Origin: Kappaphycus alvarezii
Lineage: Eukaryota; Rhodophyta; Florideophyceae; Gigartinales; Solieriaceae
DNA length: 64,000 bases
Direction of reading: 5' to 3'
Assembly (NCBI GenBank): GCA_002205965.3
Contig: NADL03000034.1
Coordinates: 186,001-250,000 of the forward strand
A program made the translations under genes and the position numbers. A model generated the notes under the pieces. That model saw only the letters and a program-made list of their open reading frames with translations, made no database searches and was not told the DNA's origin. Shown piece by piece: positions 13,987-64,000 of this stretch (position 1 is its first letter; each line of letters begins with the position of its first letter).

Positions 13987-14388
13987 AGAACTGTGCATTC
14001 GATAACCATTTACTGTACATACCCTGAGAACGGAGGTTCTCTTGTATATACACAATTTCAAGCTGTGGCTCACGAGAGTCTATTGGACCGCTGACCTCAT
14101 ATGAAGCTTTTAGCACTTCTTTTCCAATACAAAATGTTTTTACCTCAGCGCATTTCTTGTCCCTCCGCATTAGTTCATGAGTGTAGATGGCCGATCAAAA
14201 CAGACTTTTCAAGATCGTTGACCTCGGTTAAGGCTAGAGCAAGTTTCCCTCACCGGCTTCTGCTCTTCGCAAGAAGTTGTGAAAACGACTTCATTTTGGA
14301 AGGAAATATAGTTCGTATTATCGTAGGGGGTTTCAGAAACGAGGGCCCTTGTAAAGCAAAATTACTGTACTGTAACTTAACATAAAAA
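13987..14388. other. Spacer between two mobile elements
   Basis: About 400 bp between the Tc1 element and the left LTR. No gene was recognised. The last five bases (AAAAA) are the left copy of the target duplication of the LTR element. Confidence 0.6.
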
Positions 14389-22899: not shown

Positions 22900-24149
22900 G
22901 TTACACCCGATGGGTAGCGTTACCAGAATGAGAATCTACCGACGCAGTAGTTGCACGACCCTATCGTCTCCGGCCAACTCTATCGTGTCGTGCACACCTG
23001 TGCACGCGGCTGACGTGGACCACCTGGTTAACACTTCGCTAGAGCTAAATAGTCGGTTCCTGCACCCCTTGATATTATAGCCGTAAAAGTTTGTTAATAT
23101 GGGATTTAGGCAAGTGTAAGTTTATAAAGAGGTCAAAAGCCTGTCCACGTCAGATGACTGGACTCCAGCCCTAGGAAACGGGCTGGAGTCCAGTCATTGG
23201 GCTGACAGCCCTAGACATGGATGCAGTTGCGGGCTGCCTTTGGGTTAGTACTTTTTCAACCTTTCAATGTGTCTCCGTCGTCCATACATACTTTAGCATG
23301 TATGTAAAACACACTCGAAAATTTGTCTGAACTTTCCCGCCCTCTTCCCCGAGGAAAAGCTGATATGTGCTTCGGGCTTTAGCACGACGACGTCATTCTG
23401 CGTTTTCTACTGTAATCGTTGTACATTCATAACAGCTTCGTCATCCTTGACGCTTGCTGCTCGAAAAGGGTACAGTACGGGAATACCGTTGTTCTTAAAC
23501 ACATCAAAAGATTCCCCCCCCTCACGAGGCGACAAGTGTTTCTTACAGCTGTAAGCACCCACGTTCCACAGTGAGGGTATTGCACAGACTACAGTACAGT
23601 CAGTGTACCGCACGTATACAGTACAGTAGTACAGTACTACTGCTACCGTACTGCTTACTAAAATGTAAGCATTTCATTGCTGTGCACTCATTGACCAGAA
23701 AACCCATGCAGTAATATTCTGTACTCCAGAATCTGCAGTGCACGTCCACATGCGTGGTAAATTACAGTTCAGTAGAGAATTGTACCGACCATTCAGTGCT
23801 ACGCGGTACAATACTGGCTACTGCATAAGTTTCCATGACCAATCCCGAACTACCGACCTAGTGATTAATTGTGCTGTTCTTCCTATTTCTGACAGGAGGT
23901 CGCTCAATTCCCAGTGTATCTTTATCGGTCTCTCTGCTCCGATCCCCAACTCTACCCCAGCAAAGTGCGAGGCAAAGGGCTTGGTTTCCCTGATTAATCG
24001 TTGGAGATTTCTAAGGTTGCACCAGAGTGGTCCTCTCAGTACGAATCCTCCGTTGATGCTCTTAAACGGTTGTCTCACAACCTGCTTCGAAGTTGACGAA
24101 CGACAATTACTTCCAAGACTTGGAATCGAGTGGCGACTAACATCTGATC
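22900..24149. other. Upstream region of the phosphatidylinositol transfer gene
   Basis: No gene recognised. It contains the inverted repeat at 23154-23197 and a dense cluster of GTAC-type palindromes at 23583-23660. The promoter of the gene starting at 24150 should be here; no certain TATA box was identified. Confidence 0.5.
23154..23197. repeat. Hairpin with 18-bp perfect arms
   Basis: Left arm ATGACTGGACTCCAGCCC (23154-23171), 8-base loop, right arm the exact reverse complement (23180-23197). It lies about 255 bp beyond the non-LTR relic stop. It may be a structured 3' end, a miniature palindromic repeat or part of a small RNA. Downstream of the right arm parts of the stem sequence recur once (GGGCT, AGCCCTAG). 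Confidence 0.88.
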
Positions 24150-50063: not shown

Positions 50064-53000
50064 TTGGCATCTATGGACTCCAGGCCAGTGGAGGCCGCGG
50101 TGGCCCTAAACGCGTTGTACAACCGGCTACATTCGAGGCCCAGTGCGGAGGAGTGAGGTTCGGGGCTATGGAAGACTCCATCAAGTAAGACCACATTGTG
50201 AAATTTAACATATAAATCTATACGGTTATCCAAAAGGAGAAGTTACTCTGCTTCAATGCTACTCTATATACCGTATTACATTCAATTTTGCGTCACAGTA
50301 CTTCGACGCGTACGGAAACAAATCCACCGTTCAAAACATTACGGTACCGTACCCCATTCGCTGCAGTACATACATTTTTGTAAATTTTGAGCGTGCCATC
50401 TTTTAGAGTTCAATATTCCGCTTCTGCGGAATTTTTTTTTCCCACTGCATTATGCATTACAGGACTTCTTCCAAAATTTTTGCAACAAACACACTCTTTG
50501 AACAGGCTGTACAGCAGACACCTCCCAAAAAAATGAGTTGGAAGGACATATCTCCTAAACTATTCCACGCTTGATGTTCTAACTCATACGGTACAGTTCA
50601 GTGCCGAGACAAAATTGACAGCCTGTCCTATTATGTTAAGTCCGTAAAAAAGTCATTGTATTCCCTTTGACTCACAAAAATGCAAAGAAATAAAATTGTG
50701 ACTCACGATTTCACACAATTTTGTTTCCTGTACTACCCTCACGTCTCCCATAGCTCTCATCATGCACCCTATCTGTGTGTACAGTACTGTACATGCAGAC
50801 ACTGCTGTGCAGTACTGTAAACATAAAAAAATTTCCACCGCTATCCTTCCACAATATTGTACTGTGCCATACAGTGTTGTTCCGATATTGGATGGAAGAG
50901 ATTTGCCCTTCCTCTTTGTACCCAGAAACTGTTCCTTCCCCTCACCTTCATTGGTAGCTACATATTAAGCCATTCCCTCCACGAAATTCTGCGCTTCGCA
51001 TCCCGATCCAGGCCGTTGATTTGCAGTATCTATTGTATTCAATTCTTTGCTGCATCCGCTAAAACAGTGCTCCTCTCCTTTCATGAGAACCATAGCAGAT
51101 CAACTATATACAGCAATTTGCGTTGATCTTTTTCTAAACTGCCAATTCGTATCCAGTATTGCCGTGTTTAGTTCATTATCGTTCAGCCCAGGAACAGTCA
51201 ATGTGAAATTACTGCTCCAACTGTTTCTAGTTTTTCATTTCAAAGATCTATGGGTTTGAATTCCGAAAATAAGACTTGTTTGCGTCATTTCGTTGTGCTA
51301 GTTGTATATTTTCCCTGTGCTTTTCTCCTCGTTCCGGATTTGTAATAAAAATCATTTTCTTAGTTTCCATGCTACTCAGAACGGTAAGCCATGACCTTTG
51401 TTGCTTATTATTTTATGTCAGCTATGGTCCGACAAGCTAACTTCCAAAAATATTTTTTCCCTTCCATATAGCTTAAAACCTGTGCGACACTGGGTCTTGT
51501 TCCATTTAAAATGGTCATACCATACAAATTAGAACTCGGGACAAATTACTTCTCCCCTCCTTACACTTTCCGGTCGATGCCACCGTACTGCATTAAATGG
51601 GACAGGTGCAAGTTTAACAATGACTGCATCCGTAAGTATTCGACTGTTCGTAGGTTCAATGTCCGTCATGGGTGAATATTTATCCGTTTCCTTTCTCGAA
51701 TAAGGGGTTAGTTTTGTTTCTACTGTTACACACATTACTTTAAAATGCATACTAGTCTTCAATTTTTATAATGCATTTCTGGTAATCTCTTACAGCTGAA
51801 GTTAATCTCCCTTTTCATGCTCGTTTCGGGAGAGGTCATATATTTCTCGTTTGCCGTGTCATACGGTCACCTTATCCTGTCAAGTGAACATAATGTGCTA
51901 AAATCTCTGTAAATACTCTATAACTTCTAACTTTTTACATAGATTTGTTGTTACACGGCTTACATACCTGTCGGTCTCACATCATCCGGTGGATTCCCAT
52001 AGTGTAATCTATGCTTGGTCTTTGGTTCCATACATAATCTGTTTCTTTTTCCATTTGATAGTCCTGAAACTTCTAACAAGCAGTTTTAAGGGTAAAACTA
52101 ACAACTTCGGATTACTACCTCTGTCAGTGTTTCATCATTTATTCAATTCTCCATTTCTCAGGCATGACTGCCCTTTCAACATCAACAGCTATCACTTGCT
52201 ACCAGCATGTTCATTCCCGGTTGTATACCATGGGTCCATCATTTCCATTTACGGTTCCTTACTTATTCATTCATGTTAACCTGTAGAGAGTCTCGTCCAA
52301 TTACATGAATCAAATCAATTTCAACTTTGTGTCCTTAGCTTTGGGACTTGCATAAAATACTCTTTCCTTTTCGATTTGTTCTCTGCCACCCCCAATCATC
52401 TATCGTTTCGAACTTCCATCCTTTCAGGTTCACTTCAGGTTGTCAAATCCGTTAAAATTCACGCATAAAGTGTCTATCTCCATTCTCATTTCAATACAAC
52501 TGAGTAATTCATTTGAATTCATTCCTTCTTTTTCTTTCATTGGATTATTTCTTGTCATTTCCTCCTTCATCTTCCTGCCATTTGCGCTTACTTCGTGGAA
52601 TTCAATACTTCCCCTGGATTTTTTAAGGAATCCAACCCTCACTTCGGATGTTTTCATTGGCTCGTTACCAAGCTTATTGGCAAGGCCTTCTATGAAGTTA
52701 TCAATTTCCAGAACACCCCCACCTTTTCGGTCCAGTTGCGTCTTGTACAATTTAAATTGAGAAAGAGCTTCTTGGAAAAGGTCGGCCTTGACCCTTGGGA
52801 ACAAATAAAAACACTTCTAGAGCATCATATTAAGCGATAAATAACACTCTTCCATGGTCCTACATTTAGATCGCTTTTCCCAGTCACCAGTCATCCCTCG
52901 TCTTACTCCGTCGAATTCTTTCCATGATACGCAAGTCCCGATATTGATAAATTCGGTACATTCACCACCAGAGTTTGTTGCTCACTTATAATCTGAATTA

Positions 53001-55806
53001 CACCTCCGGGCTTTCGCTTTTACGGTAATGAAATGTGGAGAGCAGAACGTACAACTGTATTTCCCTGCATGTACATTAAATACTGTGCATAATTCTTGGG
53101 TCGTACTTTATTTTCTCGTCCTAGTATCCCTCATCCAAACTATAAGTGTCTGAATAATTACTACGGCTCGTATTGATTCCATGTAGTCGTTCATTGATTC
53201 CATTTAGTCGTTCATTGATTCCATTTAGTCATTCATTGATTCCATTTAGTCGTTCATGTTGATATTTACTCGCGTTCCTTCCCATTCAATCGTATAAGCT
53301 TTCGTTTTTTTGAGATGTTGTGTCATATTCCCTCTTTCATATTCGGCCAATTCTGGTGTGTCAAAAATAGTCCATTACTTTAACATCAAGATTTCTGTTG
53401 CATTTTTCACTACTTTCACGTCTTCTTCTGTGTCTTCAGTAATATTCATTTGTTCCTATTCATATTACATCAAGAATTCATATCTTTCAAGGTCCTTCAT
53501 TTCCTGCACTTTTATACTGCCATAATTGACTTTATCTGAATAAAATGCCAGGATATTGTTGCCCATTACTACTATTCTGCATACTTTATTACAAAACTTT
53601 TATTCTCATCACTCATCTCCTATGTTACATCTCTTTCATATTCTGCCCATTTCATTCCTTCAAAAATCACTGGTTGATGGCGTTTAGCTCCATTCAGTAT
53701 TGTATGACACAGTCGGTTCATGAATCAACCCAATGTTTCGTTGCCTCCAAAACTTTGGTCTCCTTTGGGATTCAATTTTTAAGATTGCTGCAGCCTACAT
53801 ATTTCTGTCCCTATCAACTTTTCTAGATCAAAAAAATTTACATTAACAGTACGTCGTTTCATAGATCTCCTACATTCTTACATTATGATTCTGTTCCAAA
53901 CGTTGTAGTCAACGGGGATTCCACCTCCAGCATTACAATTTTCACGTTTCTTGTCCCCATTTCGAGTTCGGATCATGTGTTCTTCCCGAGGATTTCCTTT
54001 CTTCGTGTACAGTATTTTGTACACATTACCATTATTTCTTATTGATTACCATTACATTCGACGTAGAATACATACGCCTTTTCTGTATCAGGAGTGGTAT
54101 TCCCCTTTGTATGCTAACTTCATTCAACTTCAATCGATTATTTCTGTGGCTCATGTAAGTTTATCGGTTTAAATTCTTCCTCCTGTGTTTATTAATAAAT
54201 ATTAATACTTAGATGTCAAAAATGCTTCCGATAATCGTTTCAGATGTTTCTCTCATCCCGCTGTCCGCACAATATTATTCACCTACACTTATGGTCTACT
54301 CATTTCACCCCTTCATATGTCATTCAATCCTGTGTATCAGGTTTTGATTCATGATAGCCATTAATTCATGTCTGGACTACCGTTCATTGCGATTAATTTG
54401 GACTTTCCATATACAACTCAATTAGTTGTTAGCTCTGCTAGCTTTAGCAGTTTTGCTGGAATCTCATTTAAATTGTACCATCGATATGTATATAGTTACT
54501 TATTGAGATCGTTGATACATGAAAAATTCGCAACTACTTCCTATCGAATTGCTTACAATGAATTTAGCATTGGTTTCTGTTACTAAGTCCTCACTCTGGA
54601 ATTTAATACTAAAATTCGTTTTCAATGATTCCTTTCTCCATACACTTATTCGAAACTTAATAAACTTTCGAGTCCATACCAAAGATAGATTAGGATGAGT
54701 GATATACAAGTAACATCATTCATCCTGATCTAATTTTGGGCTCTCTATTTCTTTCAAACGTCATTCCCTTCCGAAGAATTTTTCAATTGTTGTTCATACA
54801 TCATTTTCAAGCAAAGCTACTGCATACTTTACCTAAACATTTTACTATCATCGCCAAGCGTGTTCGAAAATTTCCCTGCTGACTTATTGCAAGTTCTCTG
54901 TATTTTCAACCACCATTCCATAGCTACCCCGTTCGTTTAATAGAATTTATTAACCATATATCCTCAGTTATTTCAGTAGACGCTTCCCTAGATTAGATTT
55001 TACAGTGTATTACACAGTTCCAATAATTAGCTTACAGTGTTTGTATCCGATTCGGTATCCGAAATGCCTCATACATTTCTTAATGTAGTAGTGCAGTCGT
55101 CACACTAGTGCCTTTTCCCACAACTTGTACATGCATAGATGGTCAGCTAAACTGTATTGGTTTTTAAACCATTATTCTTTACATGTACGAGCATTTAAAA
55201 GTGTTTTTGGGTGAAACGGTCGACACCTTGTATTGCTAGATGGGCAATAGTGCTATGTGCTGCCTTAAACACCGGTGTGGTCGTAATTGTTGTCGTCGTC
55301 CCTGGGGGGCGACAACATCAGAGGTATGTTTCTGCAATTGCTTCTTGTTTTTAGGTGTCTTATAGTGCAATTTCTTAAGGTGCATTTTTTGGTTTCAATA
55401 TCTCGGTTTTCGATCGCTGGGCTGTTACATTGGGGCTATAAAACGGATACCGAGATGTTGTACACCTTATTTACATGCATCATGACTGAAACTATTGTTT
55501 AATGATTTCATTTAATTCATTCATCTGGGATTTAGGGTTTGAACACGTGTTCGTTATGCATATATTGAATAGTTCAAATTACAGTAACCCCGGTGCAATT
55601 ATTCACTCACTTCATGTGGTAACCCGAACAGTTGATAAGGAAAGTTAAATACTGTACAGTATGGCCGAAAGGCCACGTGGTCACTCGCTTCCAACACCGC
55701 CACTCGCATCATCGAAACAATCTCCTCTCTCGGTCTCCAGTCGCTAGGCAACCGTATCGTGGCTTCATTACCGATTGAGTGAACCTCTCCATGGTAACGC
55801 CGTACC
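50064..55806. other. AT-rich, strand-asymmetric region, no gene recognised
   Basis: 5.7 kb without a supported gene. From about 51.0 to 54.9 kb the plus strand is strongly T/C-rich, so the minus strand is purine-rich as coding strands often are. Minus-strand open pieces exist (for example 52804-52430 and 51762-51529), but none has a recognised domain, and a cysteine-rich patch near 53060-52900 is broken. A 21-bp tandem repeat lies at 53173-53256. Near 50760-50870 and 55650 there are GTAC-type palindromes. The last few hundred bases would hold the promoter of the syntaxin gene. Confidence 0.55.
53173..53256. repeat. 21-bp tandem repeat, four copies
   Basis: Unit TTGATTCCATTTAGTCGTTCA, four adjacent copies, at most one substitution per copy. 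Reading frame is kept (21 = 7 codons) but no frame is supported here. Confidence 0.92.
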
Positions 55807-56772
55807 ATGGCAACTAGGGATCGCACTGCTCTCTTTTTGCGTTACAGGGAAGAAGCAAGAGCACTTCATAATCGGAAGCCGACGAAAGGGGCTGCAGATT
55901 CAAATGATACGGAAGCATTTCGGGGAGGTGACATCGATCTGGAAAGCGGGTTTGGAAATGCAGAGACTGCTAATGTTCGTCGCGGCGGGATGGAGCCAGA
56001 TTGGGTGTTTGCACACAATGAGCTCGCGGGGGATTTAGCAGAACTAGAGAAGCTTCTTGGGGAATTGTCGAGCATGTACTCCAAGCATTTGCTTCCATCC
56101 TTTGGGGAGACTGACACAACACAACTCGAACATGACATTCGCGTTCGCTCTCATCGGCTAACCGATTTATTGCATAAGGTGGAGCAAAAAGTGCGCAAAG
56201 TCTCCACGCGTCCATCGAAGACCATGTCAGAAGAGGATAAGGTAGAAATGATTATCCGACGAAATGTTCAGAGACGCTTCGCAACGCCTCTGCAAGAGTT
56301 ATCGCTGTCATTTCGGAAGAGGCAAAAAGACTATCTGGATAAGCTGAAAGACCAGCGGGAGTCCTACATGGTTTCGGACAAACCAGGATTCGGCGCCTTG
56401 ATCGACGTTGCTGACGAATCCAGTCAAGAAACTCGAGAGGGTGGTTTCTCTGAAACCCAATTACTCACAGTTGAAAACGCCTCGGCCCTTGCGGAAGAAA
56501 GAACAAGAGAGCTTACACGCGTTGCTGAAAATGTCAATGACCTTGCTACTTTGGTCAAAGACATTGCATCTCTTGTCGTGGATCAGGGGACCGTTTTAGA
56601 TAGAGTGGACTACAACCTTGAGGAGGTCAAACTGAAAACTTTAGGGGCCGTGCGAGAGCTGCATATTCTTAACCGATATCAACGAAAGCGACATGCTCTT
56701 TGCTGTATTATTTTCCTCTCCATCGCCTGTGGAGTGATGTTCATTATCCTTGTGTTGAAATGGACTTCTTAA
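55807..56772 (+). CDS. Syntaxin-16/TLG2/SYP4-type Qa-SNARE
   Basis: An intronless 321-residue gene. The N-terminal peptide (T-R-D-R-T-A-L-F-L-R-Y-R) matches the short motif that binds Sec1/Munc18 partner Vps45 in this family. A three-helix regulatory region follows (about 65-190), then the SNARE helix (about 225-290) with the zero-layer glutamine Q260 in V-V-D-Q-G-T-V-L-D-R-V-D-Y-N-L, then a C-terminal membrane anchor (about 297-317) with two residues' hydrophobic tail and no signal peptide. The protein drives fusion of endosome-derived vesicles with the trans-Golgi network. The ATG at 55807 is preferred because it gives the conserved start; an upstream ATG at 55790 is out of frame. It converges on the next gene, 97 bp away. 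Confidence 0.93.
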   Translation: MATRDRTALFLRYREEARALHNRKPTKGAADSNDTEAFRGGDIDLESGFGNAETANVRRGGMEPDWVFAHNELAGDLAELEKLLGELSSMYSKHLLPSFGETDTTQLEHDIRVRSHRLTDLLHKVEQKVRKVSTRPSKTMSEEDKVEMIIRRNVQRRFATPLQELSLSFRKRQKDYLDKLKDQRESYMVSDKPGFGALIDVADESSQETREGGFSETQLLTVENASALAEERTRELTRVAENVNDLATLVKDIASLVVDQGTVLDRVDYNLEEVKLKTLGAVRELHILNRYQRKRHALCCIIFLSIACGVMFIILVLKWTS

Positions 56773-56869
56773 ATGGGGCGGCGTATTGACTTTTTTGTGT
56801 CCCCCCTTGTTCGCCGAGATCAACGCGCAAGTATCATGCGTGCTAAAGATTTGAAAATACACGCTTAGC

Positions 56870-59800
56870 CTACGGGATGGCCACATCGGAGATGCTACAA
56901 TCCCTCTTTTCCAAAATGACTGTGCTTTCGTCCAGGTTGCGTTCGACTACGTCTATTCCACCATGTGCCAAATTTGCTACTTCTGGTGCCTCATCCTGCG
57001 CCACTATGATAACTGTATCTCTTGAGGCGTACCCCTCCCCTAACATATCCGGTAGGATCTTGGAAATCCTGCGACGTCCATCCTCATCTAAGGATTGCAA
57101 AATCTCGTCCATAACAACCATAGAAGACTGATACCCAGCACGCTCATGGGCAAGTTCGGCAAAAGCTAGCGCGAATGCCAGTGAGCATCTCCTCCTTTGG
57201 CCACCACTCAGTTGTCTCAGAGACCGCTCCTGTAACTTACCGGGCTGCCGCGCATTTGATGTGAAAACTCGTTTGGAGATGACTTCCTTGTTTTCTCCAT
57301 CAGTTCGGTTAGACGACTTGTAATCGGAGAAAGCGCGGATCTGCAGCATGAGTTCCCCTCCCGAGAGTTTTTGCAGATAATCCCCGGTAAGTTTCTCTAA
57401 CCACATCAGGCCTTCCTCAAGAACAAACGAGGGTACTCCCCGTGGTCCAAACGCAACATCTAGCGACTTAAGAGTACTCACTGCATCAGACATTTTGGAA
57501 AACTCTTCCTCCCGATTCCGCAGCATTGATTGCTCCTTTTCAAGGTTTTCAATGAGCATGCAAAGCTTTTCTTGGTGCGGGTTTGCTTCCATCTGCAGTG
57601 CTTGTTTCTCGTTTTCCAACACACGGAAACGCGACTGCAACTGTGTGATTTCGTCAATGTGCAACCGAAGGCAATCTCGCCGCTCTGCCCTGGCTGCCCT
57701 GGTAATTTCTTCCAACTCTATTTTTCGCATTATCATTGCATATTCGTTTTCTGCGTGTTGAAGATCAGCCTGACGTTCGACAACTTCCAGTTCCGCAAAA
57801 GTCGAGGCTTTCTCGTGAGTAGCCGACAATTCGCCTCTCGCTTTTCTTATGGCGGGGAATAACTCGGTAAGCTCAAGTTGGTACAGATTTGTCTCGTTGG
57901 CGAGGCGCGCTCGCTTCATTTTGAAACTCTGTATCTCCCTGATTATTGTTTGACGTGAGTCACGCGCATCTCGAACTGCACGAAGAACAGAACTAGCAGC
58001 CGATTTCTTCCCCTGTAGCTTTAACCTCTCCTTCATAATTTTGTCGTTCAGTTCCCGCACGGCGATTTCGTGTGCAACATGAGCACCTTTTCGCTTCTCT
58101 TCTGACCTGCGAATAGCATCGTTTATTGACGATACTTCCTTCTGCAATTTTAAACGCGCCTCTGTGTATAGCTCACCATCAAATGGCCTCAAGCAGGTCT
58201 CACAGGCGACTGAACTGGAAAGTGGCTCGTCTTGGGCATCTGAAAATGTGTCGAGGCTAACAAGAGAAATCCGCGCACTTACTGCGAGACGGCTCTGGAC
58301 ATCATCCAGTGATGCCTGCAGGCGAACGTGTTCCTCATTATATGCAGATACCTTCACCTGGGCTTGAGAGACATTCCTCAGTTCTTTGGAGAAGACAGTG
58401 GAGTTACCCTCGTCCATCGTTTGAATGCTGACTTTAACCAACTCCTCTAGACTCGCCTCACAATTGCGTAGTTCATCTGTCGCCATGGTCCAGCGTTCAT
58501 TTAGTGTTGTTTGACTCTGCATCGCATCCAACTCTGATTGCAATGAATTGAGAAATGTGTTGATATCGGCCAGGCTCTCCTGTTTATTTCGTTCCCATTC
58601 TTCGCTTTTATTCACTAGGGAACCAACTCGCTTTGCCATTTCTACCGCAGATTCCAGAGACACAGCTGCTCTCGCCACTGCAGCAGCCCCAGAGGCTCTT
58701 GAATCAGCAAGGCATTCATCCGAATTTTCGTCCAGAAGCTTGAGCGAAGCTTTGCAGTCAGCAATAATACTTTCCAGTTCTGTTTGTTCCATGGAAAAAT
58801 TCTCATCGTACCAAACAGAGTCCTCCTCCCATCTCGAGAAGGAGCACAGTAAGGTCTGGATCTCGTCATCCATGCTCGCGACCTTACACTCCCGAAGCAA
58901 TTCAAAATTTCCGCTCTGTTGTCGCGATATGGATACCCCCTCGGACAGCTTCGACACGGTTTCCTTGGCCGATGCAATCATTGCGTCGGCAGTGAGGAGC
59001 TTCCCTTGCAGCAATGAAGCCTTATCTCTTGCACGGCGACGCGCTTCTTTCCATATATCAAGAGGAAATATAAGCGCGAGATGTTCCTTAAGTGTTCGAT
59101 CCGTCGAGTCGAGTAGGCCTCGACCTGCACCCATGTGCTGACCAAAGAACACAGTATGCGGCAAAAGTGTACCGTTTACAAGACGATCAATCCTGGCCTG
59201 GGTTTCCTTTACATCAAGGCAGGAGAGGTCAACTCCGTTCACCTTGAGGAGCAGTTCTTGACGATAAGACCTAGTTTGGGGGATCCATCAGTTACAAGAG
59301 CAATAATCCCGTGGAGTGCGCACGCCAAAGACAAATGTCAGAGAGAAGTTCCGAGGTCTACGGTTGGGAAGACAAAAAGAGTGGGGTCTGCTGACTTACT
59401 TTGTCCTAGAGGATGACGCCGGCCTAGAACTCCTCCGTATCACTTGCACCCGTAGAGCGTCATTAGTCTTCCCAAAATTTCGTAATTCCGCGGCCTCTCG
59501 TTCAGTTGAAGTCATGATATCCCGTGCCTCTGACCAAACACGATTGCCGCGCAGAGTTAAGGTTACTGCTACTTCGCATTGATTTGCATCATCATGCACC
59601 ATCTCTAGAGAGACTCCCTTTTCCACAGAGCCGTCTGGACGCGCATCTGTTTTTCCTGTAAGGGCCCAGAGAGCGGCCATGACGAGTGTAGTTTTGCCAG
59701 TTCCATTCGTTCTACCAGTGACGGCGCCGTCCTCATCGCAATACCTACCTGTCACTAATACTAGGCCCCTCTTCCTTAAGGGATATGTTACCTTATTTAG

Positions 59801-61036
59801 GAAGCTTCCAAATCCTCTCAGTGTCACAGCTTCCCATTCAATGACGACATCTTTCCCAGAAATGCTCGTGTATGCTGAAGCCTTGCCGCCAACTTGTTGC
59901 AGAATTTCCTTTCCCATAACAGTTACTTTGTTGTCCAATTTTTTTATTGCAGCATACTCTTGGAAGAGACCAATGTTCGATAAAGTACTGCCTGCAATCC
60001 TTGGCTCCATGGGTGTCATTGGATCAAGCTCGTCGGCTTTTGCAAACTCCTTGACACTCGTTGCGATTAATTTCTGTATTTCCACTCTCACCCCTCTCCT
60101 TCTTAACGCTGCCACCAAATCCCTCCCTTTGTCATCGTGTCCCCCCCTGATGTGAAAGGTCACCCTATCTCCCTTCCTCATCTCGCCTATACGCGCCGGA
60201 TCTTGCTCCCCAGATCTCAAGACCCAATGGCGCGGCCCTATACGAACCGGGATCCTCTCCACTACTTGCCAGCCTTTCAATCGATCCAGTACACATAAAC
60301 TTTTCTCCTGTCCCGACTCTGCAGCCGAAACCTGGTACGGGCTTCCCACATATCGAATACGCTCCCCTACGACATGCGGGCGATGCAAATGACCGCTATA
60401 AACAGGTACGCCCGTGGGAAAATCCGCCGGAGTAACAGCCGCCGACGAAACGACACGGTCCGCCAGGCGAGCGCCTGCCACCTCTGTATGACAAAAGACG
60501 GCGTGTATCCCGCCGTTGCACCTGTTTGCCTCATGGAGGGCGTGCTTGAATTGGCCCTTTTCATGCATATACGGCAGAAACAAGGCATTCATGCATACAG
60601 TCGGGGTGGTAATCAGCAAGCAACGATCAATGCCGAGAGTGGTAGCAAGCGGGACCAAGGAGACGCCCGTGCCACTGCGACTGATGAGATCATGATTGCC
60701 GGGGATCATCAGGACTGGAACGGACCAGGTCTGAAGCTCTGTAAGGACTGCATTGAGTGGTTCGACGGGAAGTGCACCACGGGCGTGCCAAAAGTCTCCG
60801 AGGAAAATAATGGCGGCATGTCGCTTGAGGGCCTCGGCATGGGCAAAATGAAGGATTTGCACGCACGTGGAGGCTGTTTCACGTTTGACATGCAGGTCGG
60901 AAAGCAGGAGAAAGTGGCGGGCTGAGGAGAGTGAGGGTGGCGGGGTGGCATGGGAGAGAGAGCAGAGAAAACGGGACGGGAGAAGGCGGGAGTGGGAGGG
61001 TGGCGGGAGGAGTGGGAGGCGGACAAACGCTTGCAT
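56870..61036 (-). CDS. Fused Mre11/SbcD-like nuclease and Rad50/SbcC-like ATPase
   Basis: Two exons, 61036-59400 and 59270-56870, joined over a 129-bp intron with GTAAGT donor; 1345 residues. Residues 1-40 are rich in S, R, L and P, like an organelle transit peptide. A phosphoesterase follows: D47-x-H49, G80-D81, G-N-H-D 113-116, C-H-T-E (H183), G-H-L-H 215-218, as in SbcD/Mre11. Then the ATPase: L-R-G-F-G-S-F near 406-412, Walker A G-R-T-N-G-T-G-K-T-T (441-450), long coiled coil with the zinc-hook C-E-T-C (about 902-905), second coiled coil, signature L-S-G-G-Q (about 1233), Walker B M-V-V-M-D-E (about 1263). SbcCD and Mre11-Rad50 process DNA ends and hairpins. Here both subunits are one chain, in sbcD-sbcC order. 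GDxxD is GDFWH. Confidence 0.9.
59271..59399 (-). other. Intron of the SbcD-SbcC-like gene
   Basis: 129 bp. Donor GTAAGT on the minus strand (from 59399), acceptor CTAG ending at 59271. The joined codon (AA|G, lysine) restores one frame between the nuclease/Walker A part and the coiled-coil part, so the two large open frames are one gene. Confidence 0.85.
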
Positions 61037-61657
61037 GGTCGGTCATGTGGCCAGAGGGTTGCGAATGGCACCAGGACCGCAAGTGTTGCCAAAGACGGCA
61101 TTGATCTGGTCAAAAGCCTTTGCTCCCCTACTGTACACCACTGTACACATGTACTGTACTGTGAGGCCTTATGGCCTTATGACTTATACTGTAATGTAGA
61201 TTTGAGAGGTGATTTTTTCTCACGTGACAAATCATGTACAGTAAAATACAGTACGGTGCGTAGCCTCCAACATACTGTACTGTTCAGTACTGTACTGTAC
61301 AGAAACGAACGTCCAGCATCTGTTGATTCAAGTTCCGAAAGGCTCAACTGCTAGGAGTACCGTACTGTACTTTCGACAATTAAGAGCATATGATTCCAGC
61401 CCGTGATCCGTTGATGCCATCCACCACGCCACAGTTGTTTAACGGATAAACGAGACGACGGTCGTGTGCCTCCACAACGGCTCTCTACTTGGCTTAGAAA
61501 ACCATCTCTATCGCGCTCACGTCGACCGAGTGCAACAGAACAAAATCTCGTACCCTCCCTCCCCGGGATGACGTCTCAACATCTACTCTACGAGACGGCA
61601 TGCTTCCAAACCACAGCCTCATTCTCACCTCTTCAATCTCAATCCAACCCCCGATCA
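61037..61657. other. Intergenic region with GTAC palindrome clusters
   Basis: About 620 bp between the start of the SbcD-SbcC-like gene and the end of the isocitrate dehydrogenase gene (same strand). Dense GTAC-type palindromes at 61131-61160 and 61232-61305 (for example ACTGTACTGTTCAGTACTGT). The promoter of the minus-strand gene at 61036 must be here; no certain TATA box was seen. Confidence 0.7.
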
Positions 61658-63017
61658 CTACCCTTCAAACCGCTCCACAACGGCATTCATATACTCATTC
61701 GTAGTCACCCACCGATCCCTCTCCATCCCCGTTTGCCCATGCACACAAATCGCCAAATCTTTAGTCATAACCCCCGACTCCACCGTATCAATGCATGCCT
61801 TTTCCATATCCTTTGCCCACTCCACCACATCCGGTGTATCGTCCAGCTTGCCGCGGTGCTGCAACCCCCGCGTCCACGCGAAAATAGACGCAATGGGGTT
61901 TGTACTCGTTTCCTTACCGGCCTGATGCTGCCGATAATGACGCGTCACCGTCCCGTGCGCCGCCTCGGTTTCGATCGTGCGTCCGTCGTCGTGCGGGCAC
62001 AGCAACGTCGACGTCATCAGCCCCAAACTTCCAAAGCCCTGCGCGCTGATATCTGCTCCAGCCGTCGCGAATCAAAAGGACAAGGTTAGTCACACGACAC
62101 GAGCTACTCTCGTACGCTTTGCTGCTAAAATTCAATCGGGTCAAGGCATGTAGCGTACCTGAAATGACGTCACCGTCGTAGTTTTTCAGCGCCGCCAAAT
62201 ATCCGCCATCCGACTTGATCATGTATGCGACCAGGTCATCAATTAAGCGATGCTCATATTCCACCTCGGGGTACTCTTTTGACATTTCCTCAAACACTCG
62301 CATAAACATGCCGTCGTACTGCTTCAAAATGGTATTCTTGGTGCCCAAAATGACGCGCACGCCTCTCATTTTGGCATACGCAAAGCTGGACTTTGCAAAG
62401 CCTCTGACACTCTCCTCAGTGTTAAACATACAAAGTCCTACGCCAGGGCCGTCAAACTGGTGGACGACGCGTTCCAATTTGTCTCCGCCATCTTTCGGCT
62501 CAAAGACCATTTTCAAAGTGCCACCACCGGCGGGAGTGCTCATATCTTGCGATTTGTATTGATCGGCGAAAGCGTGGCGGGCGATAATGATAGGGCTGTT
62601 CCATGCTGGTACTAGCCTCGGAATATTGTTACATATAATAGGCTCACGGAAGACAGTGCCATTCAGAATGGAGCGGATTGTTCCGTTGGGACTCTTGTAC
62701 ATTCGCTTGAGTCCGAATTCTTTGACTCGTGCTTCATCCGGGGTAATTCCGGCGCACTTGATGCCGACATTATGCTTGAGAATGGCATGTGCTGCATCGA
62801 CGGTGACCTGATCGTCGGTGGCATCGCGGCTCTCGATGCCGAGGTCGTAATTGATGATGTCGATATCGAGATAGGGAAGAATGAGCTTTTGTTGAATAGT
62901 TTGCCATATCATACGAGTCATTTCATCACCATCGAGCGAGACGACGGGGTTCTTCACCTTTACCTTTGCGGCGGTGGAGTAGGACCTAGAGGCCGTGGTG
63001 AGAGTGGAGCGAAGCAT
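61658..63017 (-). CDS. NADP-dependent isocitrate dehydrogenase, mitochondrial type
   Basis: Two exons, 63017-62159 and 62052-61658, joined by a 106-bp GT..AG intron; 417 residues. The splice restores the block [23 protein letters not shown]. The enzyme decarboxylates isocitrate to 2-oxoglutarate with NADP. Visible blocks: [19 protein letters not shown] (substrate), [13 protein letters not shown] (metal and substrate), [11 protein letters not shown] (cofactor). The start is the ATG at 63017 ([15 protein letters not shown]): a basic, hydroxylated, acid-free leader of about 20 residues, typical of a mitochondrial presequence. An upstream frame lacks an ATG. No defect is seen. Confidence 0.93.
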
Positions 63018-64000
63018 GATTGCGGTAGTGAGGGAGTGGGGGGTTGTAGAGGGTGACGGAGGGGATGGGGGAGAGAGAAGGGGGAATTGGGGGGTCAAGT
63101 TACGGGTTGAGTGTTATAGGAAGAGGGTGGCAGAAAATGTGAGGGGCACAAGGGTAGAGAATTGAGTGAAGAGTGGTTTGAATACGCCTCCGTTTGGCGC
63201 CGGCCATTGGATGGAATGGCGTGATCACAATTGACTGTTGCGCTAAACAGAAATCATGAAAGGATCGGTATGGTATGAGGCGATGCGATGGCCATTTAAA
63301 AAGGCAAATTTGGGTGAAGGTTTTACTTACTGTTGACGTTTTCAGGAGGGACGGTGGCACAGGGGGCTTTGAACGAGGAGTAGAATATATTAGGGTTAAG
63401 TTACCAATTGGCATTCACACTCAAATTGGCTGTTAAACTATTTGATTTAGATGCCACATTTATTGCCAATGATATGATTGGTCCTTCGAAAATTTTATAA
63501 AATCTACAGATATTATATGGCCCTGTTTGGGAATAAATTTCCTCACATTTTCCATTTTTTCCAGACTTGTAAACCCATTCGCCTTTCACATCTCGACATT
63601 ATGAATCACCAGAAAAAAAAATCGCAAAACTTCCCAATACTGTGTCAAAGCCGCCCTTTCAACCTGGGCCCCCAAAATTCATCCCGTTTAAAATTTTCTC
63701 GGCTTTTAATGCCAACGAATCACCCAAACCCTTCTCCTCCGCCTTTCAACTACTGCAGCAAGAATAGCTTCCCCATCACACCAGCACTGCAGAAACAACG
63801 GCCACGTGATGCCCTCAGCACACGCCTGCAACAAACCCCGTACCCCTTTCCCATCGCCGCTTCGCACGGTTTCCATTTCAGATTCTCATCCCCCCCCTGC
63901 CCTCCCCTCCCACGTGCAATCACCAGCCCGCGAATTTCACACCATCACACCACACTTTACCGCCACATGCACTCGCCGCATTTCCGCAGTCCCGACCCCA
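63018..64000. other. Upstream region of the isocitrate dehydrogenase gene
   Basis: No gene recognised. The minus-strand DNA just above 63017 is pyrimidine-rich (C/T runs between 63040 and 63110), which may be part of the leader or core promoter. The right end becomes C-rich. Nothing else is supported. Confidence 0.5.

Follow-up and report, generated by a model that had tools for sequence, protein, structure and literature searches.

Single-chain fusions of Mre11 and Rad50, including a group from mosses, diatoms and prasinophytes, were published in 2011 (Yoshida, Claverie & Ogata; PMC3175470). As that paper presents them, the fusions of this group carry nuclease and ATPase domains in one chain alongside separate Mre11 and Rad50, while Mimivirus R555 forms a group of its own; R555 and other giant-virus fusions share the nuclease-then-ATPase order and a motif II His with the protein reported below, a comparison made by description rather than by alignment. 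In a literature search covering titles, abstract openings and few subscription papers, this was the only work found on eukaryotic Mre11/Rad50 fusions, and neither "red alga" nor "chloroplast" occurs in its main text. Canonical E. coli SbcCD, in contrast to the fusions, is encoded by two genes and has a P-loop, ITGPTGAGKT, without insertion. Phage-type SbcD and SbcC are likewise unfused and lack a presequence. The nuclear Mre11 and Rad50 of eukaryotes have the same nuclease and ATPase architecture as the fusions, but nuclear Mre11 carries an Mre11_DNA_bind domain and is encoded by a separate gene elsewhere in the genome.

The window analyzed here, a stretch of 64,000 nucleotides of Kappaphycus alvarezii DNA, contains one spliced gene for a chain of this fused type. 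Its features are as follows.

59400..61036, minus strand: exon 1, encoding the presequence, SbcD/Mre11 nuclease, capping and linker region, and start of the ATPase with Walker A (translation, Pfam, structure model)
59271..59399, minus strand: intron of 129 bp, GT-AG, at a position kept in red-algal relatives
56870..59270, minus strand: exon 2, encoding the remaining ATPase N-lobe, coiled coils, zinc hook, signature, Walker B and stop (translation, Pfam)
60920..61036, minus strand: presequence, residues 1-39
60284..60916, minus strand: metallophosphoesterase (SbcD/Mre11) domain, residues 41-251
60785..60799, minus strand: motif II GDFWH, residues 80-84
59690..59749, minus strand: P-loop, G430 to T449, with extra residues ahead of NGTGKT that mark the family
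58193..58204, minus strand: zinc-hook CETC, residues 902-905
57197..57211, minus strand: ABC signature LSGGQ, residues 1233-1237
57104..57121, minus strand: Walker B MVVMDE, residues 1263-1268

Splicing of the two exons yields 1345 residues with a single terminal stop: a presequence, followed by the Mre11/SbcD nuclease and then the Rad50/SbcC ATPase, which bears the zinc hook. The intron begins GTAAGT and ends CTAG; translation continued through it runs into stop codons. Six relatives (P0001-P0006) cross the junction without a break, among them P0002 with a transcriptome-type accession, GFKZ01013744.1, and of 20 first-exon proteins of red-algal type, 15 lose their BLAST match to the window protein at residue 544-547 (the other five, P0122, P0124, P0129, P0136 and P0138, do not). 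The splice is thus supported by relatives that either end at the junction or read across it. Exact coordinates, translation, Pfam and relatives agree on the single spliced gene proposed in the initial annotation, and the fused gene is confirmed on this evidence as real rather than a chance arrangement.

Pfam assigns Metallophos to residues 41-122 (27 bits, cut-off 21.5), Metallophos_2 to residues 43-251, and AAA_23 to residues 404-591, across the splice (39.4 bits, cut-off 27). SMC_N (33.6 of 40) and SbcC_Walker_B (24.9 of 27) fall below their curated cut-offs, and PF04152, the Mre11_DNA_bind domain of canonical eukaryotic Mre11, gives no Pfam match in the fusion up to an E-value of 0.1. Motifs read from the sequence include, besides those listed above, DLH (47-49), GNHD (113-116), GHLH (215-218) and NGTGKT (444-449), so that the main motifs of both halves are all located in the spliced chain, as had been claimed. 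The ATPase half has the features of the Rad50/SbcC type, namely the Walker A lysine motif, signature, Walker B and CxxC hook, and C902 and C905 of the hook are invariant in a 23-member alignment. In GxxxxGK[ST] the window protein has Arg in place of the first Gly, a position that is Gly in only one of 120 family members. A model of the exon 1 product (545 residues) has a mean pLDDT of 83.2; its fold matches by VIA-align mostly cover residues 37-327, and the ATPase part is therefore barely tested by fold.

In the same 23-member alignment D47, H49, D81, N114, H183, H216 and H218, which we take, after P. furiosus Mre11, to be the seven metal-site residues, are invariant. A His closing motif II occurs in some Mre11 proteins. 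The initial annotation had read GDFWH as a departure from the canonical motif that alters the second metal site; the His is instead the family norm, ending GDxxH in 101 of 111 readable members, and with the seven residues invariant this reading is rejected (see also PMC3175470). The same annotation regarded the fusion as nearly unique, a view that gives way to the moss, diatom and prasinophyte fusions known since 2011 (PMC3175470) and to the presence of motifs of both halves in 108 of the 120 relatives among the matches listed. By its sequence the gene is a red-algal member of a known fusion family and not a new kind. It differs from the published group in its presequence, which is of the florideophyte MxxFxR form, and in a single conserved intron that interrupts the N-lobe of the ATPase. 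What appears to be added here is the breadth of the family, which ranges over red algae, green algae, bryophytes, a clubmoss and ochrophytes, red-algal membership included. Among the 120 matches listed, 40 relatives are named in full, every one an alga or a bryophyte, and no fern or seed-plant names occur among the matches listed. If this absence is true, the gene could have been out of reach of studies in Arabidopsis for that reason.

Sequence evidence establishes the fusion, its splice and motifs, its place in the family, and the presence of separate genes for Mre11 and Rad50 (described below). The reading that we consider likely is that this nuclear, spliced red-algal gene encodes a single-chain Mre11/Rad50-type (SbcD/SbcC-type) enzyme of a fusion family found across plastid-bearing eukaryotes, and a putative organelle, more likely plastid, nuclease acting on DNA ends and hairpins. 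The presequence would direct import into the organelle; two chains would pair through the nuclease dimer and both ATPase heads, the zinc hook joining the coiled coils; once ATP binds, the heads may close on a hairpin or DNA end, and cutting of hairpins and blocked ends by the metal-dependent nuclease would let organelle recombination repair proceed. To our knowledge, how plastid DNA hairpins and blocked ends are opened is not settled. Conserved in algae, mosses and a clubmoss and equipped with N-terminal extensions, a single-chain SbcCD-like enzyme would be a direct candidate for this activity. A 2021 review (PMC8383295) has RecJ and RecQ acting at organelle breaks in a scheme that it labels hypothetical; its text as available mentions neither SbcC nor SbcD.

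The N-terminal presequence suggested earlier as a likely transit peptide does exist: residues 1-39 begin MQAFVR and contain three Arg and no acidic residue, with RFLCS at 22-26. MxxFxR recurs in 13 of 15 florideophyte-type N-termini, whose extensions are conserved and basic with 0-3 acidic residues, and an organelle role for the fusion is plausible on these features. The window presequence, taken by itself, fits plastid and mitochondrion alike, and an enzyme that is mitochondrial rather than plastid, or is dual-targeted, is a secondary though still substantial possibility; some ochrophyte-type starts, for example P0077, also resemble mitochondrial precursors. A signal peptide followed by a Phe start points to complex plastids. 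Such starts occur in part of the ochrophyte-type members, and together with a named distribution that tracks plastids they argue against a mitochondrial enzyme. The rule is far from general, failing in 23 of 35 ochrophyte-type N-termini, some of which have no signal peptide. Three of the seven named full-length diatom members pass it (P0081, P0108 and P0265) and four fail: in P0094 the motif is present but the hydrophobic stretch begins too far in, P0071 has a hydrophobic stretch without the motif, and P0088 and P0098 also fail.

The initial annotation suggested acquisition from a bacterial operon. An unfused sbcD-sbcC pair is indeed the nearest relative found outside the fusions, consistent with one part of that proposal, but the pair is of phage rather than canonical bacterial type. 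It lies on an IMG/VR phage contig (L009), has about 36% identity and adjoins recA and ruvC. Like the window protein, the SbcC of L009 has extra P-loop residues inserted between the strand-1 Gly and NGxGK, as does SbcC of Exiguobacterium phage vB_EalM-132. Motif II of L009 is GDFWD. The insertion is present in 10 of 15 sequences and absent from five (L011 and L021 among those without it), and the P-loop pattern finds no site in L020 and L027. Because it is missing from T4 gp46 and LP65 orf70, among others (E. coli SbcC and five viral fusions also lack it), the insertion is not universal in phage SbcC. The window protein scores 25.7 bits on NCBIfam TIGR00619 (cut-off 77.65) and 18.9 bits on TIGR00618 (cut-off 478.5), compared with 322.9 and 1456 bits for the E. 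coli SbcD and SbcC controls. PHROG matches were discarded as phage evidence since E. coli SbcD and SbcC match the same PHROGs. A scan of bacterial chromosomal contigs reduced 244 pattern matches to one confirmed relative, from a Lishizhenia MAG, at 22% identity and with the two halves in separate frames. No close chromosomal donor emerged from this single distant relative, although the scan rests on three peptide patterns and is thus no proof that a bacterial donor is absent. A search of a plasmid collection gave no match. A search with P0049 alone returned no viral loci; alignment A2, built on P0049, returned 59, of which only the P-loops, and those in part, were inspected.

Two trees bear on ancestry, with taxon groups for the topology tests assigned from source names, tree position and gene prefixes (Chlat, Mesvir and Galph being presumed to mark taxa). 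Tree 1, with distant outgroups, holds 57 of 58 sequences (L057 left out), including E. coli SbcCD and T4 gp47/46, and places L009 inside the algal set (UFBoot 92). Tree 2 holds 50 selected sequences, 39 of them eukaryotic, without giant-virus fusions, glaucophytes and Dictyostelium, and places L009 outside the eukaryotes (73/81). In these trees, where Ceratodon represents the mosses and host Mre11/Rad50 are left out, the fusion clusters with those of moss, prasinophytes and diatoms and is separate from E. coli SbcCD and T4 gp47/46, with moderate backbone support. A phage-type sbcD-sbcC pair fits better as origin than canonical bacterial SbcCD, the root of the tree not being firm, and the family looks like an old gene with phage-like ancestry, probably organelle-linked. 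It is conceivable, and we propose it tentatively, that a phage pair in a recA/ruvC-type setting was fused and took on a role in plastid repair before red and green algae diverged, reached ochrophytes with the red plastid, and was kept as far as clubmosses but not in ferns or seed plants, where it would have been lost. Phage-like polymerases and a helicase exist in organelles. If the proposal is true, the fused nuclease joins them, and one ancient acquisition replaces the 2011 view of scattered virus-borne transfers.

That view (Yoshida et al., PMC3175470), in which several algal lineages gained the gene independently, from giant algal viruses or from phages, rather than inheriting one ancient plastid-lineage gene, has perhaps one chance in a few of being correct. 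It draws on long SbcCD-like proteins encoded by giant viruses such as Tetraselmis virus 1, Pyramimonas orientalis virus and Tupanvirus, some of them algal, on the occurrence of both halves in one frame at 7 of 62 viral loci, and on the modest backbone support (red plus stramenopile, 73/82; red monophyly, 62.7/83). Against it, tree 2, which is without giant-virus sequences, recovers the eukaryotes as one clade with the greens together and the reds weakly together, and a placement of stramenopiles with greens is rejected (AU p 0.011). A placement of L009 with greens is not rejected (AU p 0.10), and the SH test rejects no alternative topology.

The same genome has separate Mre11 and Rad50 genes, seen as Mre11_DNA_bind matches on contigs C462 and C7 and as exon matches to rad50 TIGR00606 on C55 and C21 (best 176.4 bits, single exons lying below the whole-protein cut-off); a pattern search for the host Rad50 P-loop gave no match. 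With canonical Mre11 and Rad50 also present, the fusion could be a specialized nuclear paralogue, a second nuclear set whose N-terminal extension is no targeting peptide, and some family members do lack an obvious signal peptide. This is nonetheless improbable given the conserved, basic florideophyte extensions with few acidic residues, the signal-peptide-plus-Phe starts of part of the ochrophyte-type members, and the exclusively algal or bryophyte origin of the 40 relatives named in full among the 120 matches listed. The separate genes also mean that the fusion is no misjoin of standard nuclear Mre11 and Rad50, a concern raised initially, and with the identical junction in relatives from other assemblies and in one transcriptome protein they make an assembly or annotation artefact joining two ordinary genes exceedingly improbable, the frameshifts in a near-copy of the locus being all that was found in its favor. 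This near-copy, on contig C598, aligns over about 13 kb and keeps both splice sites; it carries five small frameshifting indels and differs from the window exons by 14, 16 and 49 mismatches at codon positions 1, 2 and 3, respectively (1345 sites each).

The gene was reconstructed from two minus-strand open frames, 59396-61036 (546 residues) and 56870-59242 (790 residues), which when spliced over a 129-bp GTAAGT...CTAG intron give a protein of 1345 residues with no internal stops; translation of the intron in frame yields stops. The coordinates of the gene model proposed in the initial annotation (two-frame join, intron and protein length) are exact. Pfam matches to the fusion comprise Metallophos and AAA_23, the latter spanning the splice, along with SMC_N and SbcC_Walker_B, both under the curated cut-offs. 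The neighbouring genes are as follows.

55807-56772, strand opposite to the fusion gene: SNARE/syntaxin gene
61914-63098, minus strand: isocitrate dehydrogenase-like frame

Comparison with relatives confirms the splice. The junction is read through in six relatives (P0001-P0006), one of which, P0002, has a transcriptome-type accession (GFKZ01013744.1). In 15 of 20 red-algal-type first-exon proteins the match to the window protein ends at residue 544-547, beyond which they stop or turn to unrelated residues, and two others of the 20 (P0122 and P0124) show the same break point by eye. It follows that the intron is ancient in these algae. Another contig of the same genome, C598, carries a near-copy of the locus that keeps both splice sites; its exon mismatches at first, second and third codon positions number 14, 16 and 49, a distribution that, on this count, is the pattern of selection on the protein; the copy of the fusion also carries five small frameshifting indels. 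C598 aligns over ∼13 kb with the window from about 50600 to 64000, mostly at 89-96% identity and with both neighbour genes included, and is probably a second haplotype. Mre11 and Rad50 matches likewise fall on two contigs each, so the assembly may hold two haplotypes. These matches are Mre11_DNA_bind at 57 bits (C462, C7) and rad50 exons at up to 176 bits (C55, C21), and Pfam on the spliced fusion protein gives no match to Mre11_DNA_bind; by these comparisons the fusion gene is distinct from the nuclear Mre11/Rad50 pair.

The gene is real and well supported, and it adds a new member to a known family of Mre11/Rad50 fusions. The single-chain arrangement, which had been presented as a surprise, was already published for Mimivirus, bacteria, a phage, two slime moulds, a moss, a diatom and Micromonas, including a moss-diatom-prasinophyte group, with scattered transfers proposed as the origin; the Mimivirus fusion R555 has His in place of the third Asp of GDxxD (Yoshida, Claverie & Ogata, 2011; PMC3175470). 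The main text of that paper nowhere uses the words red alga, Cyanidioschyzon, Galdieria, chloroplast or plant, and among the papers listed in literature searches none after 2011 deals with eukaryotic Mre11/Rad50 fusions. Fresh relative to 2011 are the red-algal branch, the spread across plastid lineages, hints of targeting, and a phage-like P-loop.

A search for relatives found 216, of which 120 are among the matches listed. Within these 120, motifs of both halves are present in 108, and all 40 bearing a full organism name (hand count) are algae or bryophytes. A further search that started from the Marchantia protein (224 relatives, 120 among the matches listed) brought in the clubmoss Diphasiastrum, 54% identical; the names among these listed matches include neither ferns nor seed plants, most of the matches in both lists being nameless. 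One relative with a Galdieria-type gene name, P0013, is a 1666-residue protein whose precomputed Pfam domains include Iso_dh, and an isocitrate dehydrogenase gene adjoins the fusion in the window; the two are possibly a merged gene model and a conserved neighbourhood.

Residues 1-39 of the window protein contain three Arg and no acidic residue. An MxxFxR start is common to 13 of 15 florideophyte-type N-termini (hand count), which supports the chosen start codon. Red-algal plastid transit peptides carry Phe close to the start; the presequence may be compatible with mitochondrial import. A signal-peptide-plus-Phe rule is passed by 12 of 35 ochrophyte-type proteins (shuffle mean 4.3%) and by three of seven full-length named diatom members; the 23 ochrophyte-type proteins that fail include some that are truncated and some lacking a signal peptide. 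Ochrophyte-type relatives such as P0063, P0081 and P0088 have an extra N-terminal segment ahead of the nuclease, in which a GGWYT-like motif is conserved and which may be an SH3/KOW-like domain.

In a tree of 50 sequences with phage pairs as outgroup, the phage pair L009 branches first (grouped with the rest of the ingroup at 73/81), then a group of metagenomic sequences that lack presequences (P0015, P0047, P0049, P0059; 98.7/98), then a single clade of 39 sequences treated as eukaryotic (97.9/90). Within it, support is 99.8/99 for Viridiplantae, 62.7/83 for red algae, and 73/82 for red algae plus stramenopiles with two unnamed sequences. By the AU test, a placement of stramenopiles with greens is rejected at p 0.011 and one outside red plus green at p 0.038; their placement with red is not rejected (p 0.31), and the SH test rejects no alternative. 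With this branching order and these AU results, inheritance with the red plastid is a better fit than the scattered transfers of 2011. Counter to red-plastid inheritance, L009 falls inside the algal set (92) in a tree with distant outgroups, and a grouping of L009 with greens survives the AU test (p 0.10). The four metagenomic members are fused SbcDC proteins from metagenomic contigs and form the sister group of the eukaryotic clade in the 50-sequence tree; we infer a probable viral or bacterial origin for them.

L009, which spans 13 kb of a 42.7-kb IMG/VR contig, encodes in succession a primase, a single-strand-binding protein, a UvsX/RecA-like recombinase, SbcD (342 residues), SbcC (693 residues, in a frame overlapping that of SbcD) and a RuvC-like resolvase. 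Among 62 viral loci, both halves share one frame in seven, nuclease and ATPase lie in separate frames in 43 (hand count), one half stands alone in 11 (hand count), and one cut locus, L022, has the nuclease and the ATPase N-lobe in one frame. The algal family carries extra residues in the P-loop between the strand-1 Gly and NGxGK: the Gly-to-Asn spacing is 9-10 residues in 84 of the 120 relatives listed of 216; for the window protein it is 13 (G430 to N444). SbcC of L009 and of other phages, including Exiguobacterium phage vB_EalM-132, has a similar insertion, whereas E. coli SbcC, T4 gp46, LP65 orf70 and five viral fusions are without it. At the position of the first Gly in GxxxxGK[ST], one of the same 120 relatives has Gly, 74 have Asp, 19 Glu, seven Arg and 19 other residues.

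Short TACTGTA-type repeats lie in the flanks (61130-61302) and also at 2219-2235, 14363-14374 and 23617-23628; TACTGTACTGTA occurs five times in the window, compared with a mean of 0.02 in shuffles.
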